This document shows positions 1 through 5,595 of a stretch of DNA of 7,343 nucleotides, in pieces; within the stretch, counting starts at the first letter, position 1; each line of letters opens with the position of its first letter. Under the pieces are notes generated by a model that was given only the letters and a program-made list of their open reading frames with translations, did no database searches and had not been told where the DNA came from. The stretch covers positions 1 through 7,343 of the forward strand of contig JALVWX010000209.1 of the NCBI GenBank assembly GCA_027023165.1, given 5' to 3'. This DNA is from Thermococcus sp. GTDB taxonomy: Archaea; Methanobacteriota_B; Thermococci; Thermococcales; Thermococcaceae. The translations under genes were made by a program, and so were the position numbers.

Positions 1-658
1 CGTTCCCTTCGAGGGGCACCACAAGTATCTCCCCGAAGGGCTCCTCCTGAACTAGGTCAACCTTTCCCATGTTCGCGAGGAAAAGCAGGTAGAGGAAGGT
101 TCTCGCGACGTACTTCGGCGTCGGGTCGAAGACGAGGTCCCAGAAGCGTATCGGCGAGCCTGTCTCAGCGTACATCCTGACCACGATCTCGTGGAGCCTG
201 TGGACGTGCTTCTGGATGTCAACGCGGAAGTCCTCAACGACGAAGACCTCCTCCTCGATGTCGACCTTCTTCCTCTTCCGGGGCTTCTTCCTCTCGGCCT
301 CCTCAAGGGCGTCCATTAAAGCGTCGAGCAGGTCGTCAAAGGTGTAGTATCTCTCCACCCTCCTGAGGGGCGGTGCCAAAGGCTCGACCTCGACCTTTAT
401 GTGCTCCCCGTGCTTCTCCTCCTCTTCCTCCTCGTCCGCGTGAAGTAAAGCCTCGCTCTTCATCCTCACGAGTATCGATGCAGCTAGAATGGCCCTCGCC
501 GAGACCCTCAGGTCGAGGTCCTTCATCTCGCGCAGCCTCTCGATGTACTTCTCCGTCAGGTCGACTATGTCAATGTTCCAGGGGTCGACCTTCCCCATCG
601 TGACGAGCTGGAGGAGAATATCAACCGGCGTTATCTCCTCTTCCCTTCGTGCCTCCAT
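1..658 (-). CDS. scpA: ScpA, kleisin subunit of the Smc condensin complex (3' end cut by window edge)
   Basis: Kleisin that bridges the two ATPase heads of an Smc dimer to form the DNA-entrapping ring used in chromosome organisation and segregation. The frame is open from an ATG at 658 to the window edge, giving 219 residues, which is about the full family length, so only a few residues and the stop are probably missing. The N-terminus (PVDILLQLVTMGKVDPWNIDI at about 11-31, then LTEKYIERL) is typical of the ScpA helical domain that contacts the Smc neck. An acidic Glu-rich linker lies near residue 75-85. The last ~75 residues (VHRLHEIVVRMYAETGSPIRF..., FLYLLFLANMGKVDLVQEEPF) form the winged-helix domain that binds the Smc head. 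The start follows the upstream nucleotidyltransferase stop by 5 bases, and GGGTGA, which contains that stop, acts as RBS. No ScpB gene is visible; Thermococcales Smc complexes have been reported to lack kite subunits. Confidence 0.93.
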   Translation of the reverse strand, partial: MEARREEEITPVDILLQLVTMGKVDPWNIDIVDLTEKYIERLREMKDLDLRVSARAILAASILVRMKSEALLHADEEEEEEKHGEHIKVEVEPLAPPLRRVERYYTFDDLLDALMDALEEAERKKPRKRKKVDIEEEVFVVEDFRVDIQKHVHRLHEIVVRMYAETGSPIRFWDLVFDPTPKYVARTFLYLLFLANMGKVDLVQEEPFGEILVVPLEGN

Positions 659-663
659 TTAGC

Positions 664-1083
664 TCACCCTCTCACCCGTATCCAGCCCCTTTTAACCCTG
701 CGGAACTTCTTCTTGACTGCTCTGAAGGCAGACATAACCTCCCGTAGGTACGCCCCGTCTGCGTGCAGAACTTTTCCGTCCTCCAACGCGTCCATCACCA
801 GAGGGTGTCCTTTGGCGAGCATCCTGCTGAACTCCTCGGGGGTGTAGGCCTTGACGTCTATGGGTGCCCTTGTCATGTCGAGGTCGTAGAGCAGTTTCAT
901 TCTCTCATTGGGATTTTTGGGCAGGTTCTCCGCAACCACTAATATGTCCACGTCGCTTCCAACTCCAAAGGTCCCTTTTGCAACTGAACCGTGAAGCAGT
1001 ATCAGTCGGGGCCTGATGGTCTTTTTCAGAACTTCAACGTAGCCGACGATGTCCCTCCAGTAGGGAATGTCAGCGTAATTCAT
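664..1083 (-). CDS. mntA: MNT-domain nucleotidyltransferase, antitoxin of a HEPN/MNT pair
   Basis: Small DNA polymerase beta-fold nucleotidyltransferase, predicted antitoxin of the HEPN protein encoded just upstream. In characterised HepT/MntA systems the MNT protein transfers AMP from ATP onto the HEPN toxin and silences it; that activity is inferred here. The start chosen is the ATG at 1083 (139 residues) because an AGGGGTG RBS lies a few bases upstream. In-frame GTG (1092) and TTG (1089) codons further up would add only three residues. Active-site signature: HGSVAKGTFGVGSDVDILVV, with Gly32-Ser33 and metal-binding Asp44 and Asp46. The third acidic residue is probably Asp76 in PIDVKAYTPEEF. 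The catalytic set therefore looks complete. The C-terminus is strongly basic (KKKFRRVKRGWIRVRG). The start overlaps the HEPN stop by 14 bases, so the two are probably translationally coupled. The last codons lie in a 10-bp repeat shared with the smc 3' end. Confidence 0.88.
   Translation of the reverse strand: MNYADIPYWRDIVGYVEVLKKTIRPRLILLHGSVAKGTFGVGSDVDILVVAENLPKNPNERMKLLYDLDMTRAPIDVKAYTPEEFSRMLAKGHPLVMDALEDGKVLHADGAYLREVMSAFRAVKKKFRRVKRGWIRVRG
668..677. repeat. 10-bp direct repeat, copy at the mntA/scpA junction
   Basis: On the minus strand this reads GGGTGAGAGG, identical to the copy at 1484-1493. It falls in the last codons of the nucleotidyltransferase gene. The gene's stop (664-666) lies just outside the repeat, in a second GGGTGAG that also serves as RBS of scpA. 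With its partner it brackets the HEPN/MNT pair. It may be a target-site duplication or recombination scar, or simply repeated Shine-Dalgarno-like sequence. Confidence 0.7.
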
Positions 1084-1483
1084 CCACAACACCCCTGATG
1101 AAGTTCAAGACCCTCTCAGCGGCTTTTATGGCCTCTTCAGCATCCGTTTCCCCATAGTATTCGTAGGGAGCGCCCTCAATGTAGGCATCTGGGTACCTTG
1201 GGGGAATGTAGTGCCTGTCAAGGAGCCTGGCGATGCGGAACATCTCCTCCGGAATTTCAACATTTGGGTCCTCCTTTGAGAGAACATCAAACAGGTGCTT
1301 CAGTGAGTGGCCATAAACCATTATCCCCCTCCCGTACATTAGGGCCTTCAGAGCATACTCTGCCGCCTGCTGGGCTTTAAAGCAGGCCCAGGAATAAAAA
1401 CCGGAGCGGAGATCGCTCCTTGCACTCTCAAGTGTGTACTCTGCTTGTGACATCCAGCGCTCAAACTCCTCAGTGTCGAACAT
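1070..1483 (-). CDS. hepT: HEPN-domain protein, probable RNase toxin of a HEPN/MNT pair
   Basis: HEPN-family all-helical protein of 137 residues, predicted to be the ribonuclease toxin of a type VII-like toxin-antitoxin pair with the MNT gene downstream. The family hallmark WACFKAQQAAEYALKALM sits at about residues 32-49. It is followed by Arg52-X6-His59 (RGIMVYGH), which fits the R-X4-6-H motif of catalytically active HEPN RNases, so nuclease competence is plausible. The helix near the C-terminus (DAEEAIKAAERVLNFIRGVV) is also typical. I chose the ATG at 1483 over an in-frame TTG at 1507, because the TTG would overlap smc and has no RBS, whereas GGGTGA stands 4 bases before the ATG. The gene starts 4 bases after the smc stop and overlaps the next gene by 14 bases. 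The usual AMPylated tyrosine of R-X4-H-X-Y HepT proteins is absent at that position (His59 is followed by Ser-Leu). Family is secure; toxicity is inferred. Confidence 0.86.
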   Translation of the reverse strand: MFDTEEFERWMSQAEYTLESARSDLRSGFYSWACFKAQQAAEYALKALMYGRGIMVYGHSLKHLFDVLSKEDPNVEIPEEMFRIARLLDRHYIPPRYPDAYIEGAPYEYYGETDAEEAIKAAERVLNFIRGVVDELR

Positions 1484-1493
1484 CCTCTCACCC
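1484..1493. repeat. 10-bp direct repeat, copy at the smc/hepT junction
   Basis: The minus strand reads GGGTGAGAGG, exactly as at 668-677. This copy contains the last Gly codon and TGA stop of smc and supplies the RBS of the HEPN gene, whose ATG follows immediately at 1483. The exact match ends at both sides: the bases before it are GAA here and TAC at the other copy, and the base after it is A here and G there. Confidence 0.7.
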
Positions 1494-4400
1494 TTCAAGC
1501 CGTCCAAACATCTCCCTGTGCTCCTCCTCGCTCTTCTCCCGTATCTGGGCGAGTATCTTCCTGGCCTTCTCGAGGCTGAGCGAGACGACCCTTGAAACGC
1601 CGTTCCTCATGCTGACGCCGATTATCCTGTCGGCGTTGGCCATCATAACGTCGCGGTGGGTGACGACGATGAACTGGCTGTCCTGGGAGGCTTCCTTTAT
1701 CAGGTCTGCAACGCGCTTGACGTTCGCATCGTCGAGGTGGGCATCTATCTCGTCGAGGAGGTAGAACGGGGCTGGTTTGTAGCGCTGGATGGCGAAGATG
1801 AAGGCCAGTGCTATTATAGCCTTTTCGCCGCCGCTCATCGCCTCTATCCTCTTGACCTCCTTTCCGGCGGGCTTTGCCTCGACTTCAAGGCCGCCTGCGA
1901 ACGGGTCTTCCTCGTTCTCGAGGATGAGCCTGGCCTCTCCGCCGGGTGAGAGCTTTCCAAACAGCTCGGAGAAGTTCCTCGCTATGGCGTTGAGCGTCTG
2001 GAGGAAGACCTGCTTCTTCTGGCTCTCTATCTCCTGGATAAACTCCTCAATGCTCTCCTTCTCGGCGACCACCTGTTCGCGCTTGCTCTTGAGCTCGAGG
2101 TAGCGCCTCTCAACGACCTCGAAGTCCTCGATGGCCTTCATGTTGACAGGTTCGAGGGAGCGTATCTCCTCCTCCATCGTGGTTATCTGCTCCCTCAGGG
2201 CCTCGAGTTCGAGCGGGACTTCTTTTATCGAGCGTATGAGCTTCGAATCGTACTGCTTAAGCTCCTCCTGCCTCTCCCTCAGCGCCCCCTCGTACTGGGC
2301 GAGCTTTATCTTCAGCGTGTTCGCCTCTATGCGAAGCTCTTGGAGCTTTGAGGAAAGCTCGTCCTTCTCGTTTCTTAGCTCGGCTATCTCCCTCCTAAGT
2401 CCTTCGCGCCTCTCGCGGAGTTCCTTAAGCTCGTCCTTGACGTTCTCCTCCGCCTTCTTAAGCTCCTCAAGCTCTGCCTCGTATTCCTCTATGGCCCGTT
2501 TGTTCTCCTCGATGTTGGCCCTGAGGGCGTTTATCCTGTTGACGAGTCCCTCTATCTCCTCCTCAAGGTCGGCCTTCCTCGGGAGGAGTTCCTCGTTTAT
2601 CCTCGCCTCTAGGGCCTCGAGCTTGCTCTCTACCTTGCCCAGCTCCGCCTGGAGCTTGCTTATCTCGGCCTCGACCTCCCTTATGCGCTGGTTCAGCTCC
2701 CTCGCCTCGGGGTTCTCGAGTGCCCTCTTGAGCTTCTCGCGCTTCTTCTCAAGGCGCTCAATCCTGCCGCGGAGCTTCGCCATCTCACCCTTTGCCTCGT
2801 GGATTCTCTTCTCAAGGGCTTCTATCAACTTCTCGTTCTCCTCTATCTCCTCGGATAGGGCCTTATCCTCTGCTAAGAGCCTCTCCATCTCCTTCTGGAC
2901 CACCTGAAGGTCTTTGCTCAGCTCGCTCTTCCTCATGCGCAGGTTGAAAAGTTCGTTCTCCAGGCCTTTGACCTCGAGCTTGAGGGCGTTGACTGCTGAC
3001 TCGAGTGCTTCTCTCTCGCGCTCGAGCTTTTCGACCTTCTTTCTTATCTCCTCGACGTTTACACCGAGCCTGCCCCTCGGCCTGTAGTGGCCGCCTGTTA
3101 TGGCACCGCTTCTTTCGAGGAGCTCTCCCCCAAGGGTCACCATGCGGACCTTTCCTATCCCAACGCTCCTTGCCTCGTCCATGTCCTCGACGATGAGGGT
3201 ATCCCCAAGCGCATACGCTACAGCGTTCTTGAAGCGGGGGTCGTAGTGGACGACATCAAGGGCCGGAATGCCCAGGGCCGGCTTTTCGCGCATCGAGCGC
3301 GGCTTTATCTTGTTGAGCGGGAGGAAGGTCAGCCTCCCGAGTTTCCTTTCCTTGAGGAGCTTTATTGCCCTCTCCGCGACCTTATCGTCCTCAACGACGA
3401 CGTTGTCGTAGTTCCCGCCGAGGGCGACCTCAACGGCCAGAGCGTACTTCTCGTCGGCGACGGTTATCAGTTCCCCGAGGGTGCCGTGGAGGCCCGGGAT
3501 GTTCTGCCGCTTCAGGAACTCCACCGCACGGTTTCCCCGCACTTCCCTCTGGGCCTCCGCCTTTATCAACTCCTCCTTTGCCTTGGCCAGCTTACCCTCA
3601 ACCTTCTTCAAAGCCCTCGTCTTTTCCTCAAGCTCCTTCTCCGCCTTCCTGAGCCTCGCCTCCGCCCTTGATAGCTTCCCCTCAACATCGCCAAGCTCGG
3701 AGCGCTTCTCCTCGAGCGACTTCTTGGCCTCCTCAATGCGGGACTTCAGGCCAACTTTCTTCGCGTTGTTCTGGGCGATTCTGGCCTTGGCGCGCTCTAT
3801 TTCCTCCTCGAACTTTTTCACATCCGCCTCGCGGGTGTAAAGCTCTTTCTTCGCCTCCTCAAGCTCTGCAACGACCTTATCAAAGTCCTCCTTTGCCATG
3901 GAGAAGCTCCTGTCTATCTCGCCGAGCTTCACAACAAGCTCGTTCTTGACGACTTCTTTCTCCTTGATCTCGGCGATGAGCTTCTCGCGCCTCTTGCTCC
4001 AGCGGGTTATCGCGCTTCTGCTCTTCTCTATCTCCCCGGAAACCTTCTTCAGGTCCTCCTTGGCCTTGGCCATGCGCCTCTGACTTTCCTCTATCTCCTT
4101 CTCCGCGTTCTCGATGTTCCGCTTGGCAAGCTCGATCTTGGACTTAACCTCGCTTATCAGCCTCGTTACCTCGAGTATGCCGTCCTCACTCTTCTCCTCG
4201 AGTTCCCTCTCGACCTCTGCGAGTTCCTTCTCCTTGGCAACTATCTCTTTGGCGACCTCCTTAAGCCGGGCTTCTACGGCCGCTATCTCCGCCTCAAGCT
4301 CCTTGTCGCGGAGGTTGCTCTCGCCTATGAGGTTCTCAAGCCGCTTTATCTCCCCTAAGAGGAGCGTGACCTTGGCCTTCTCAACCCTGTCCTTCAGGTC

Positions 4401-5054
4401 AAGGTAGCGAAGCGCATCGTTGCGCTCCTTCTCGAGCTTGTCGAGCTGGGCCTTTACCTCGCGTATGAGAAGATCAACGCGCGCTAAATTCTCCTCGGCC
4501 TGCTTCAGCTCGACCATTGCCTTCTCCTTCTTGGAATCGTACTCGGCTATTCCAGAGATCTCGTCGATGAGGAGTCTCCTCTCCGTGGGAGACATCTTGA
4601 TGAACTTGGTGATGTCGCCCTGCAGGACGAGGTTGTATCCTTCCGGCGAGATCATCGCCGCGCTGAGAACGTCGAGTATGTCGCTCCTGCTCGTCCTCTT
4701 GCCATTGAGCCAGTAGGTGCTCCTGCCGTCTGGATAAACGCGCCTCTTGACGACCACTTCATCTTCATCAACCGGGAAGCCCCTGTCCTCGTTGTTGAAG
4801 TACATTGCCACCTCCGCGTACTTTGCCGGAGGCTCGGTTTTGGTGCCCGCGAATATGAGGTCGCTTATCCTCGTCGCGCGCATCGCTTTGGCGGACAGAC
4901 CGCCCAGAACGAAGAGAACGGCGTCACCTATGTTGCTCTTTCCAGAACCGTTGGCACCAACTATCGCTGTAAACCCTTTAGAAAGCGGGACGACGACCTT
5001 CCGATTACCGTAGGATTTGAAGCCCTTCATTTCAATCTTCTCAATGTAAGGCAT
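1488..5054 (-). CDS. smc: Smc, chromosome segregation/condensin ATPase
   Basis: Structural Maintenance of Chromosomes ATPase, 1,188 residues, the usual length for archaeal Smc. It dimerises through its hinge and, with the ScpA kleisin, forms a ring that translocates on or entraps DNA in an ATP-dependent way. Visible order: N-terminal half of the head with Walker A GANGSGKSN (33-41) and Q-loop Gln145 (LVLQGDI); a long antiparallel coiled coil, almost all Glu/Lys/Leu/Arg heptads (about 165-510); the hinge (about 515-655, from IPGLHGTLGELI to the glycine-rich AITGGHYRPRG); the return coiled coil (about 660-1010); and the C-terminal head with the ABC signature AMSGGEKAII (about 1070) and Walker B plus D-loop FYLLDEIDAHLDD (about 1096). 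All ATPase motifs are intact and I see no intein. The start ATG has AGGTGTGAG 2-3 bases upstream and a BRE/TATA promoter beyond it. It heads an operon with hepT, mntA and scpA. Confidence 0.98.
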   Translation of the reverse strand: MPYIEKIEMKGFKSYGNRKVVVPLSKGFTAIVGANGSGKSNIGDAVLFVLGGLSAKAMRATRISDLIFAGTKTEPPAKYAEVAMYFNNEDRGFPVDEDEVVVKRRVYPDGRSTYWLNGKRTSRSDILDVLSAAMISPEGYNLVLQGDITKFIKMSPTERRLLIDEISGIAEYDSKKEKAMVELKQAEENLARVDLLIREVKAQLDKLEKERNDALRYLDLKDRVEKAKVTLLLGEIKRLENLIGESNLRDKELEAEIAAVEARLKEVAKEIVAKEKELAEVERELEEKSEDGILEVTRLISEVKSKIELAKRNIENAEKEIEESQRRMAKAKEDLKKVSGEIEKSRSAITRWSKRREKLIAEIKEKEVVKNELVVKLGEIDRSFSMAKEDFDKVVAELEEAKKELYTREADVKKFEEEIERAKARIAQNNAKKVGLKSRIEEAKKSLEEKRSELGDVEGKLSRAEARLRKAEKELEEKTRALKKVEGKLAKAKEELIKAEAQREVRGNRAVEFLKRQNIPGLHGTLGELITVADEKYALAVEVALGGNYDNVVVEDDKVAERAIKLLKERKLGRLTFLPLNKIKPRSMREKPALGIPALDVVHYDPRFKNAVAYALGDTLIVEDMDEARSVGIGKVRMVTLGGELLERSGAITGGHYRPRGRLGVNVEEIRKKVEKLEREREALESAVNALKLEVKGLENELFNLRMRKSELSKDLQVVQKEMERLLAEDKALSEEIEENEKLIEALEKRIHEAKGEMAKLRGRIERLEKKREKLKRALENPEARELNQRIREVEAEISKLQAELGKVESKLEALEARINEELLPRKADLEEEIEGLVNRINALRANIEENKRAIEEYEAELEELKKAEENVKDELKELRERREGLRREIAELRNEKDELSSKLQELRIEANTLKIKLAQYEGALRERQEELKQYDSKLIRSIKEVPLELEALREQITTMEEEIRSLEPVNMKAIEDFEVVERRYLELKSKREQVVAEKESIEEFIQEIESQKKQVFLQTLNAIARNFSELFGKLSPGGEARLILENEEDPFAGGLEVEAKPAGKEVKRIEAMSGGEKAIIALAFIFAIQRYKPAPFYLLDEIDAHLDDANVKRVADLIKEASQDSQFIVVTHRDVMMANADRIIGVSMRNGVSRVVSLSLEKARKILAQIREKSEEEHREMFGRLEG

Positions 5055-5106: not shown

Positions 5107-5538
5107 TCAGTCGAGTATCCTGCGGAGCAGATGGATCGTCCTCTCGTCAAGTGCGTCGCTCACGGTGACGTAGAAGTTCGAACCCCTGAGAACCGTCATG
5201 TCCCTGAGCTTGCTGGTGAATTTGAGGGCGGTTTCAACGCCGTTCTCAATGGCCAGATACTCAAAGGCGTCAAAGATCACGTCCGACTTTGAATTTTGGA
5301 GAAGCTGCCAGAGAGTCTGCTCCAGAACGTAGAGCTTCGAAGGATCTGCGTGTCCGGGATGGGGTACCTTTGAGAGATATATCAGCTTGACGTTCCCCGG
5401 GGCGTCGATTTGGTGTCTGCGGGTTATGACGACTTTCTGCTTCGTGGGGTCCGAGCGGAGCACCCGCAAAAAGTCCTCCTCATCGAGGAGTCCCGAACCC
5501 TGAAACACGGACGATTTCTTGCCAAACCACAGTGCCAT
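5107..5538 (-). CDS. DUF835 family protein, function unknown
   Basis: A 143-residue cytosolic protein (no signal peptide or membrane segment) that I assign to DUF835, a family common in Thermococcales and of unknown function. Supporting features are the N-terminal beta-rich stretch KVVITRRH (about 35-42) and KLIYLSKV (51-58), then SDVIFDAFEYLAIENG (85-100) and the following helix ETALKFTSKLRDM. FYVTVSDALDERTIHLLRRI at the C-terminus is also typical. The segment DVIFDAFEYL resembles a Walker B strand, but no P-loop is present, so nucleotide hydrolysis is not indicated. I chose the ATG at 5538 because GGTGAG lies 4-5 bases upstream. A longer frame from a TTG at 5592 would run through the promoter region. 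The gene ends 52 bases before smc, which has its own promoter. It has its own promoter in the AT-rich island upstream. Membership is by recall of family sequence, not by search. Confidence 0.82.
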   Translation of the reverse strand: MALWFGKKSSVFQGSGLLDEEDFLRVLRSDPTKQKVVITRRHQIDAPGNVKLIYLSKVPHPGHADPSKLYVLEQTLWQLLQNSKSDVIFDAFEYLAIENGVETALKFTSKLRDMTVLRGSNFYVTVSDALDERTIHLLRRILD

Positions 5539-5595
5539 ACGCCTCACCGGCGTGCAAGCTGGATTTGATTTATGGTTTTTTGGTGATAACAAAAA

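Follow-up and report, generated by a model that had tools for sequence, protein, structure and literature searches.

A fixed smc-scpA address, patchily occupied by HEPN/MNT gene pairs, in the Thermococcales

HEPN/MNT pairs are reportedly very common in thermophilic archaea. The window (the whole stretch of Thermococcus sp. DNA analysed here, 7,343 nucleotides) carries such a pair inside the condensin operon, between smc and scpA, which raises the question of how it came to sit there and whether the address matters. An earlier note on this DNA proposed acquisition by insertion, with an exact 10-bp direct repeat as the signature of the event. Comparing this junction across the order, we think it likely that a Class II HEPN/MNT pair occupies a fixed smc-scpA address, that its seams are built from stop codons and ribosome-binding boxes, and that it is lost by deletion and regained or replaced laterally.

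The gene pair and its class

The minus strand of the window carries, in this order, meaB, a glyoxalase-like gene, a DUF835 gene, smc, HEPN, MNT and scpA (Table 1). The earlier note had placed the pair exactly, and the Pfam and TIGR02169 matches agree with its gene names; the insert is also clean, as it had claimed, both at the smc end and at the scpA start. The smc gene terminates in GAA GGG TGA (Glu-Gly-stop), with its stop codon at 1488-1490 inside the left GGGTGAG box, and HEPN starts (1483) four bases past that stop. The 3' end of HEPN and the start of MNT share 14 bases (MNT start 1083, HEPN end 1070), and scpA starts (658) five bases past the MNT stop, leaving only the two genes and 9 bases between the smc stop and scpA. 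A GGTGA box stands where it would be expected if HEPN took its ribosome-binding site from the end of smc, in line with the earlier proposal. The DUF835 gene lies at 5107-5592 of the window; in 4 of 47 loci (G062, G003, G055 and G039) there is no DUF835 match upstream of smc and the gap is short too, so the 5' side of the operon varies as well.

Table 1. Features around the smc-scpA junction of the window, with the evidence for each
Feature	Positions	Strand	Basis
scpA, kleisin partner of Smc, extends past the window edge	2..658	-	PF02616, E 9e-19
Right GGGTGAG box: MNT stop and presumed scpA ribosome-binding site	663..669	-	register from the G063 junction
MNT, 139 aa, minimal nucleotidyltransferase, presumed antitoxin	664..1083	-	PF18765/PF01909, E 5.3e-9/2.6e-8
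10-bp repeat GGGTGAGAGG, right copy, inside the MNT 3' end	668..677	-	exact word search
HEPN, 137 aa, Class II, presumed toxin or substrate-binding partner	1070..1483	-	PF05168, E 1.8e-35
10-bp repeat GGGTGAGAGG, left copy	1484..1493	-	exact word search
Left GGGTGAG box: smc stop and presumed HEPN ribosome-binding site	1487..1493	-	sequence; G063 empty-site alignment
smc, chromosome segregation ATPase	1488..5054	-	TIGR02169, 1191 bits

The HEPN protein scores 122.1 bits on PF05168 (cutoff 22) and the adjoining MNT 34.6 on PF01909 (cutoff 21), which is the pairing that marks Class II; MNT scores slightly better on PF18765 than on PF01909. Solved structures 1wol, 1ufb and 1o3u are relatives of the window HEPN. 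Set against PF01934 and PF08780, the models of Type VII HepT, the HEPN protein matches PF05168 only, and MNT reaches 33.3 bits on the MntA equivalog model NF047752, under its cutoff of 60. Judged by these profile matches, the pair is a Class II HEPN/MNT module, distinct from Type VII MntA-HepT. The MNT protein matches the PADLOC candidate models PDC-M05A and PDC-S09 (best E 1.2e-10) and HEPN matches none; we did not adopt a defence-system label.

In all 20 intact copies at the site, the window included, MNT retains GSx10DxD and HEPN retains GHS and RYPD; RX4HXY was found in none of the 20 HEPNs. Tyrosines 16, 30, 57, 92, 97 and 110 of HEPN are invariant among these copies, and one of them may be the conserved tyrosine proposed as an AMP acceptor in the class. 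Class II HEPNs are described as having no RX4H RNase motif (Yao 2020, PMC7641770), and the passage on PF05168 proteins in Anantharaman 2013 (PMC3710099) suggests that those with D in place of the motif H may use a conserved histidine elsewhere. A plain R-x4-H string does occur in all 20, as R[LMV]LDRH in 16 and RYPDAH in 4. The RYPDAH form belongs to the site copies of G008, G010, G013 and G014, where RYPDAY is usual, so that in these the R-x4-H falls at the RYPD place, which might bear on RNase activity. The four additional pairs treated in section 22 of PMC7641770 are Class I, and the toxicity tests described there cover Class I only. With RX4HXY missing and the R-x4-H strings at most candidate catalytic motifs, we treat the toxin function as presumed: HEPN is probably the toxin or a substrate partner, and MNT probably the antitoxin.

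The HEPN-first order might look like an oddity of this site, given that the published gene-order rule for HEPN/MNT, as worded in PMC3710099, is MNT-first. We rejected this idea: all 20 pairs located elsewhere in these genomes are HEPN-first, so gene order is no argument for a domesticated role in the condensin operon. Where defined, dN/dS is 0.02-0.31, some pairs being saturated; the exception is G010-G014, at a tiny dS (0.74 for HEPN, 0.41 for MNT). These ratios place the module under purifying selection.

Occupancy of the junction across the order

We assembled 88 loci, the window and 87 of 94 Thermococcales genomes, the other 7 having no scpA match and being dropped. Inserts longer than 100 bp occur at 26 of the 88 junctions, and every one is HEPN/MNT: 20 are intact pairs of the window's family, 4 are broken, and 2 are a second class standing alone (G006 and G088), while one of the 20 intact loci, G094, carries both the window-family pair and the second class. 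At most 13 bp separate smc from scpA at 56 loci. The pair is no novelty of the window: the same junction is occupied across the Thermococcales. The two outcomes that the earlier note had said would count against insertion, namely a vertically inherited pair shared by every relative, or empty junctions unrelated to the window's, were not found among the 88 loci, and empty-site relatives with a related junction do exist (for example G063, 39 of 44 nt). At the nearby meaB-glyoxalase junction, 0 of 47 readable loci carry an insert.

The broken copies are the large remnants of G062, G018, G064 and G067; that of G062 is the start of HEPN joined in frame to the end of MNT. Two further loci look scarred. 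At G057 a 34-nt end matches the MNT tail at 31 positions, against a best of 19/34 among loci without a window-family module. G055 is a weaker case, with about 14 HEPN-like codons, at most 29 of 42 nt matching and no chance control. Two loci with odd spacers, G038 and G003, may hold scars and were left out of the scar count. In G067 (L116) HEPN and MNT form one open frame of about 186 codons with several in-frame deletions; the MNT motif is intact and large pieces of HEPN are lost, so that this could be a decaying or a domesticated fusion. The smc of G088 (L131) is apparently frameshifted, its C-terminal query match ending at residue 248 of 370 with a stop after it, by sequencing error or real mutation; the gap length of G088 is therefore overstated and its smc identities are meaningless. 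The G039 contig is cut within scpA.

Copies of the same subfamily also stand outside the operon, beside other reading frames, in G086 (L182), G077 (L183) and G081 (L184), whose own smc-scpA junctions are empty. We looked for a GGTGA box at these three and found none. An AT-rich stretch, CCAAAAAGGTTTAATAA, ends 21 nt upstream of the start of the G086 copy, and we infer that such stretches give the three copies promoter-like sequence of their own. The G081 HEPN seems broken near its start. A more distant HEPN copy, with an internal TGA, lies elsewhere in G063 (L201, G063:C1:46868-47200). In a search of 115 genomes of the phylum with the HEPN protein (E<=1e-25), all 37 with a match fall among the 94 Thermococcales. 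Plasmid matches comprise 36 records (34 Thermus, 1 Meiothermus and 1 Thermomicrobium), with identities of 41-50% among the 10 listed of the 36.

On a tree of smc and scpA, occupied loci are scattered among empty ones; for the 26 loci that hold an intact or remnant copy of the window's family, at least 21 changes of occupancy are required, or one gain and 32 losses. In the HEPN/MNT tree (built without xG043b, xG030, xG007, the fragmentary xG063 and xG014c, and the MNT half of xG054; long branches flagged by the program were WIN, the window, together with G033 and xG054) a 100/100 branch sets the site copies off from the further copies that the same genomes carry. The three copies from elsewhere in G077, G081 and G086 nest among them, beside that of G094. 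Module distances follow host distances (r 0.93; 0.76 without the Pyrococcus-like rows, namely G014 and its close relatives G008, G010 and G013), so residence looks old.

Over 18 rows (without G066 and G013, whose smc is short) the module tree and the smc+scpA tree nevertheless reject each other, with p-AU of 1.3e-33 and 3.9e-6. Clade tests run without G013 and G010 reject, for the module, two of the host groupings (p 3.6e-5 and 4.4e-6), namely G016+G034+G051+G072 and G017+G043+G026. A third suspected swap, between G036 and G069, found no such support, the host clade G028+G066+G069 being unrejected (p 0.16). The modules of G016 and G043 are 96% identical, against 85% over the first 300 nt of scpA and about 80% in smc past 900 nt. 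G043 agrees with G016 at both informative sites among the final 15 nt of smc and at all 3 among the opening 15 nt of scpA; farther out it mostly sides with its sister G019 (42 to 2 over scpA 60-300 nt, 21 to 8 over smc 15-300 nt), and at scpA 450-640 again with G016 (17 to 9). Flank sites of swapped modules are thus a mosaic and place the breakpoints only roughly. The module has thus changed hands between the G043 and G016 lineages at one address, the breakpoints probably lying close to it. Overall, the pair looks like an old, patchy occupant of a fixed address, with repeated loss and with lateral exchange in at least two cases.

Seams, repeats and the second cassette

In the window GGGTGAGAGG occurs only as the two copies of Table 1, which flank the pair as the earlier note had observed. 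None of 200 dinucleotide-preserving shuffles of the window held two copies (mean 0.04), a result that flatters the repeat, since the word was picked from the sequence itself. It is the longest word common to the two flanks, and was equalled in 13 of 2000 single-base shuffles of the right flank. GGGTGAG occurs twice in that flank, at 671-677 and 663-669 with a single base between, which allows two deletion registers. The 7-bp register pairs 1487-1493 with 663-669 (unit 824 bp), and the 10-bp register has a unit of 816 bp. Joined at the 7-bp box, the window gives a 44-nt junction of exactly the G063 length, and it is this junction that yields the 39 matches; joined at the 10-bp repeat it gives 52 nt, 8 bp longer than the empty G063 junction. 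Box-register joins likewise reproduce the G022 junction from G036 and the G025 junction from G028, at 41 of 41 nt each, and the other eight pairings give 28-38 matches over 41-45 nt, two of them with a one-base spacer difference.

Among the 20 intact loci, the longest word shared by the flanks is 10 bp in the window, 11 in G069 and 16 in G028, G036 and G066; in the other 15 it is 5-6 bp, which is chance level. The GGGTGAGAGG 10-mer is found in the window only. For G094 this comparison says little, as its right flank is that of the second cassette. The box itself recurs: at 62 of 88 loci a GGTGA stands no more than 15 nt from the scpA start, where random positions give 1.3%, and the other 26 lack it there. 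At the seams it reads GGTGA in most loci and GGAGGGCTGA in one clade. The earlier note had cautioned that its repeat is Shine-Dalgarno-like, and this caution was apt, the repeated element being a stop codon inside a ribosome-binding box. The repeat of the window thus looks mainly like such a box, grown to 10 bp in this genome, and not like a target-site duplication of a conserved kind. The note had also supposed that MNT borrowed its stop codon from the old scpA leader; this is not needed, as the G074 MNT and the G064 remnant also end V-x-Gly-stop. The empty locus G038, not a near relative, reads GGCTGAGAGGGTGAGC before scpA, near the ancestral junction that the note had predicted. An empty site reading GGGTGAGAGGGTGAGC in the window's own species would be at odds with the box-seam explanation.

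For three other loci a target duplication would explain the long repeats as well or better. At G028 and G036 the two repeat copies share the variable base ahead of the start codon with each other and with the closest empty relative, the pattern expected of a target duplication. In G066 the variable base agrees between the copies and differs from G047, and in G069 the copies differ at it. A duplication at G028, G036 and G066 is accordingly a possibility that we keep. We found no transposase or integrase in the smc-scpA DNA of the window and no uniform terminal or target repeats, the flank repeats changing in length and sequence from one locus to the next; a trans-acting transposase could still have taken part. 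The suggested codon-usage check is uninformative about gain: module GC3 is below that of the 3' part of smc in all 18 measurable intact loci (G066 and G013 being too short), and codon usage is therefore no evidence of recent arrival.

The second class makes a stronger case for insertion. An MntA-HepT pair lies at the same junction in G088, G094 and G006, flanked by copies of GGTGACCAAAATG that are identical over 13, 17 and 17 bp respectively, and the cassette unit is 636 bp. In G094 its proteins match PF01909 and PF01934, and RDKLIHFY fits RX4HXY. GGTGACCAAAATG is the scpA leader and start. It is present in a single copy in the empty relative G092, and upstream of other MntA loci it was found in 0 of 27 (27 of 30 loci taken from 65 listed matches), which argues that the leader was duplicated when the cassette entered. 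Entry with target duplication is thus well supported by these sequences for the second class, although G092-like sites could instead be collapsed ones. The leader of G005, a relative of G006, is of another kind, and G006 may therefore have brought in its leader along with the cassette. Insertion with target duplication is thus well supported for MntA-HepT and a possibility for the three 16-bp loci; the 10-bp repeat of the window is not supported as an insertion signature.

Rival readings and known systems

From these comparisons we take as established the fixed address, the patchiness, the remnants, the two tree conflicts, the box-register seams and the purifying selection. In the explanation that we favour, the seams would be stop codons embedded in ribosome-binding boxes, so that the pair could be present or absent without upsetting the signals of its neighbours. 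HEPN and MNT would be translated by coupling from the smc transcript, with ribosomes handed on to scpA. Loss would proceed by deletion, either exactly at the boxes or with remnants left behind; the similarity of the boxes would favour precise deletion, with microhomology or slippage as a route. Homologous recombination through smc and scpA would then restore or swap the cassette, the regain or replacement seen in at least two cases at the same address.

How the window itself came to be occupied admits several readings. G063, the nearest relative of the window, has an empty site, and the window's module forms a long branch without a close partner; the remnant of G062, the next sister, is 80-84% identical to other lineages and 71% to the window. 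These points, together with an exact 10-bp repeat that is unlikely by chance, would suit a recent arrival by insertion in the window's lineage, along the lines of the earlier note, with 10 bp of target sequence duplicated. We regard this as improbable, because the G063 junction is 8 bp shorter than it predicts, the pair occupies the same junction order-wide, and the long repeat is lacking in 15 of the 20 intact loci. A tentative but more credible alternative is gain from an unsampled donor into a primitively empty, G063-like site, with GGGTGAG as a 7-bp duplication or microhomology. The 7-bp register does give the G063 junction length, and close to the junction the window goes with G063 rather than G065: of 21 informative sites among the final 60 nt of smc, 17 agree with G063, 3 with G065 and 1 with neither, and of 11 among the opening 60 nt of scpA the corresponding counts are 9, 1 and 1. 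The module distance between the window and G065 is also 3.6 times the housekeeping distance, where the median over pairs is 1.8. However, the flank likeness fits a precise deletion in G063 equally well, and the G062 remnant suggests that the common ancestor may have been occupied and that G063 is a loser. For the module, the tests do not reject a grouping of the window with G065 (p 0.09) or with the wider clade of its hosts (p 0.38), and the copy in the window may therefore have descended vertically. A gain by the window and a loss by G063 are both plausible.

Pure vertical descent from the Thermococcales ancestor, with losses only, fits the single group of site copies and the tracking of hosts by deep distances, but would need the 32 losses. 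It is contradicted by the tree tests for G016/G043 and G017/G072, in which two host clades are rejected for the module, and by G016 and G043 modules far more alike than their flanks; we hold it very improbable. It is also unlikely, in our judgement, that the pair is a domesticated nucleotidyltransferase with a substrate-binding partner that acts on the Smc-ScpA machine or its expression, rather than a toxin-antitoxin. The condensin-operon address, the lack of RX4HXY in all 20 HEPNs and the purifying selection would agree with such a role, yet the pair is absent or broken in most loci, the same family stands elsewhere in three genomes with promoter-like sequence of its own, and a different HEPN/MNT class occupies the same site. 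More speculatively, the junction could be a dedicated, exchangeable slot for HEPN/MNT cassettes of both classes, its occupancy favoured because co-translation with condensin would couple the HEPN and nucleotidyltransferase activity to chromosome replication and segregation, the pair being a conditional third operon member. We consider this doubtful.

Over 88 loci a single address is found intact in some, broken, scarred or exchanged in others and empty elsewhere, so that gain and loss can be read base by base, and the second class at the same seam adds to that record. The slot bears on how small cassettes move without a transposase, and gives a straightforward way to ask whether a place in the condensin operon makes a difference. 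In the open-access literature searched we found no prior account of HEPN/MNT at the Thermococcales smc-scpA junction; what is new within that literature is a fixed slot used across an order and by two classes, with gain, loss and exchange recorded down to single bases.

Among known systems, the window pair most resembles the Class II HEPN/MNT modules (HEPN-T, COG2250, a link made by family name) as these are outlined in PMC2701414, PMC3710099 and PMC7641770. It shares with them the Pfam pairing, GSx10DxD, the lack of RX4HXY, the conserved GHS and RYPD and a patchy distribution; it differs in its fixed address within the smc-scpA operon and in its stop/ribosome-binding seams. HEPN-MNT pairs present or absent within conserved clusters, a Thermus operon included, are described in Makarova 2009 (PMC2701414). 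The insertion in the lysine operon of Thermus thermophilus HB8, absent from HB27, and Deinococcus DR0679-80 are likewise present or absent in a conserved cluster. In the account given there these are single cases, whereas in the Thermococcales a single junction is used order-wide and by two classes, and it shows both remnants and lateral exchange. Type VII MntA-HepT (Class I, PF01934/PF01909), reported in PMC7641770 as tested in T. cleftensis CL1, shares the junction in G006, G088 and G094; it differs from the window pair in its HEPN subfamily and its MNT-first order, and the window itself holds the Class II pair.
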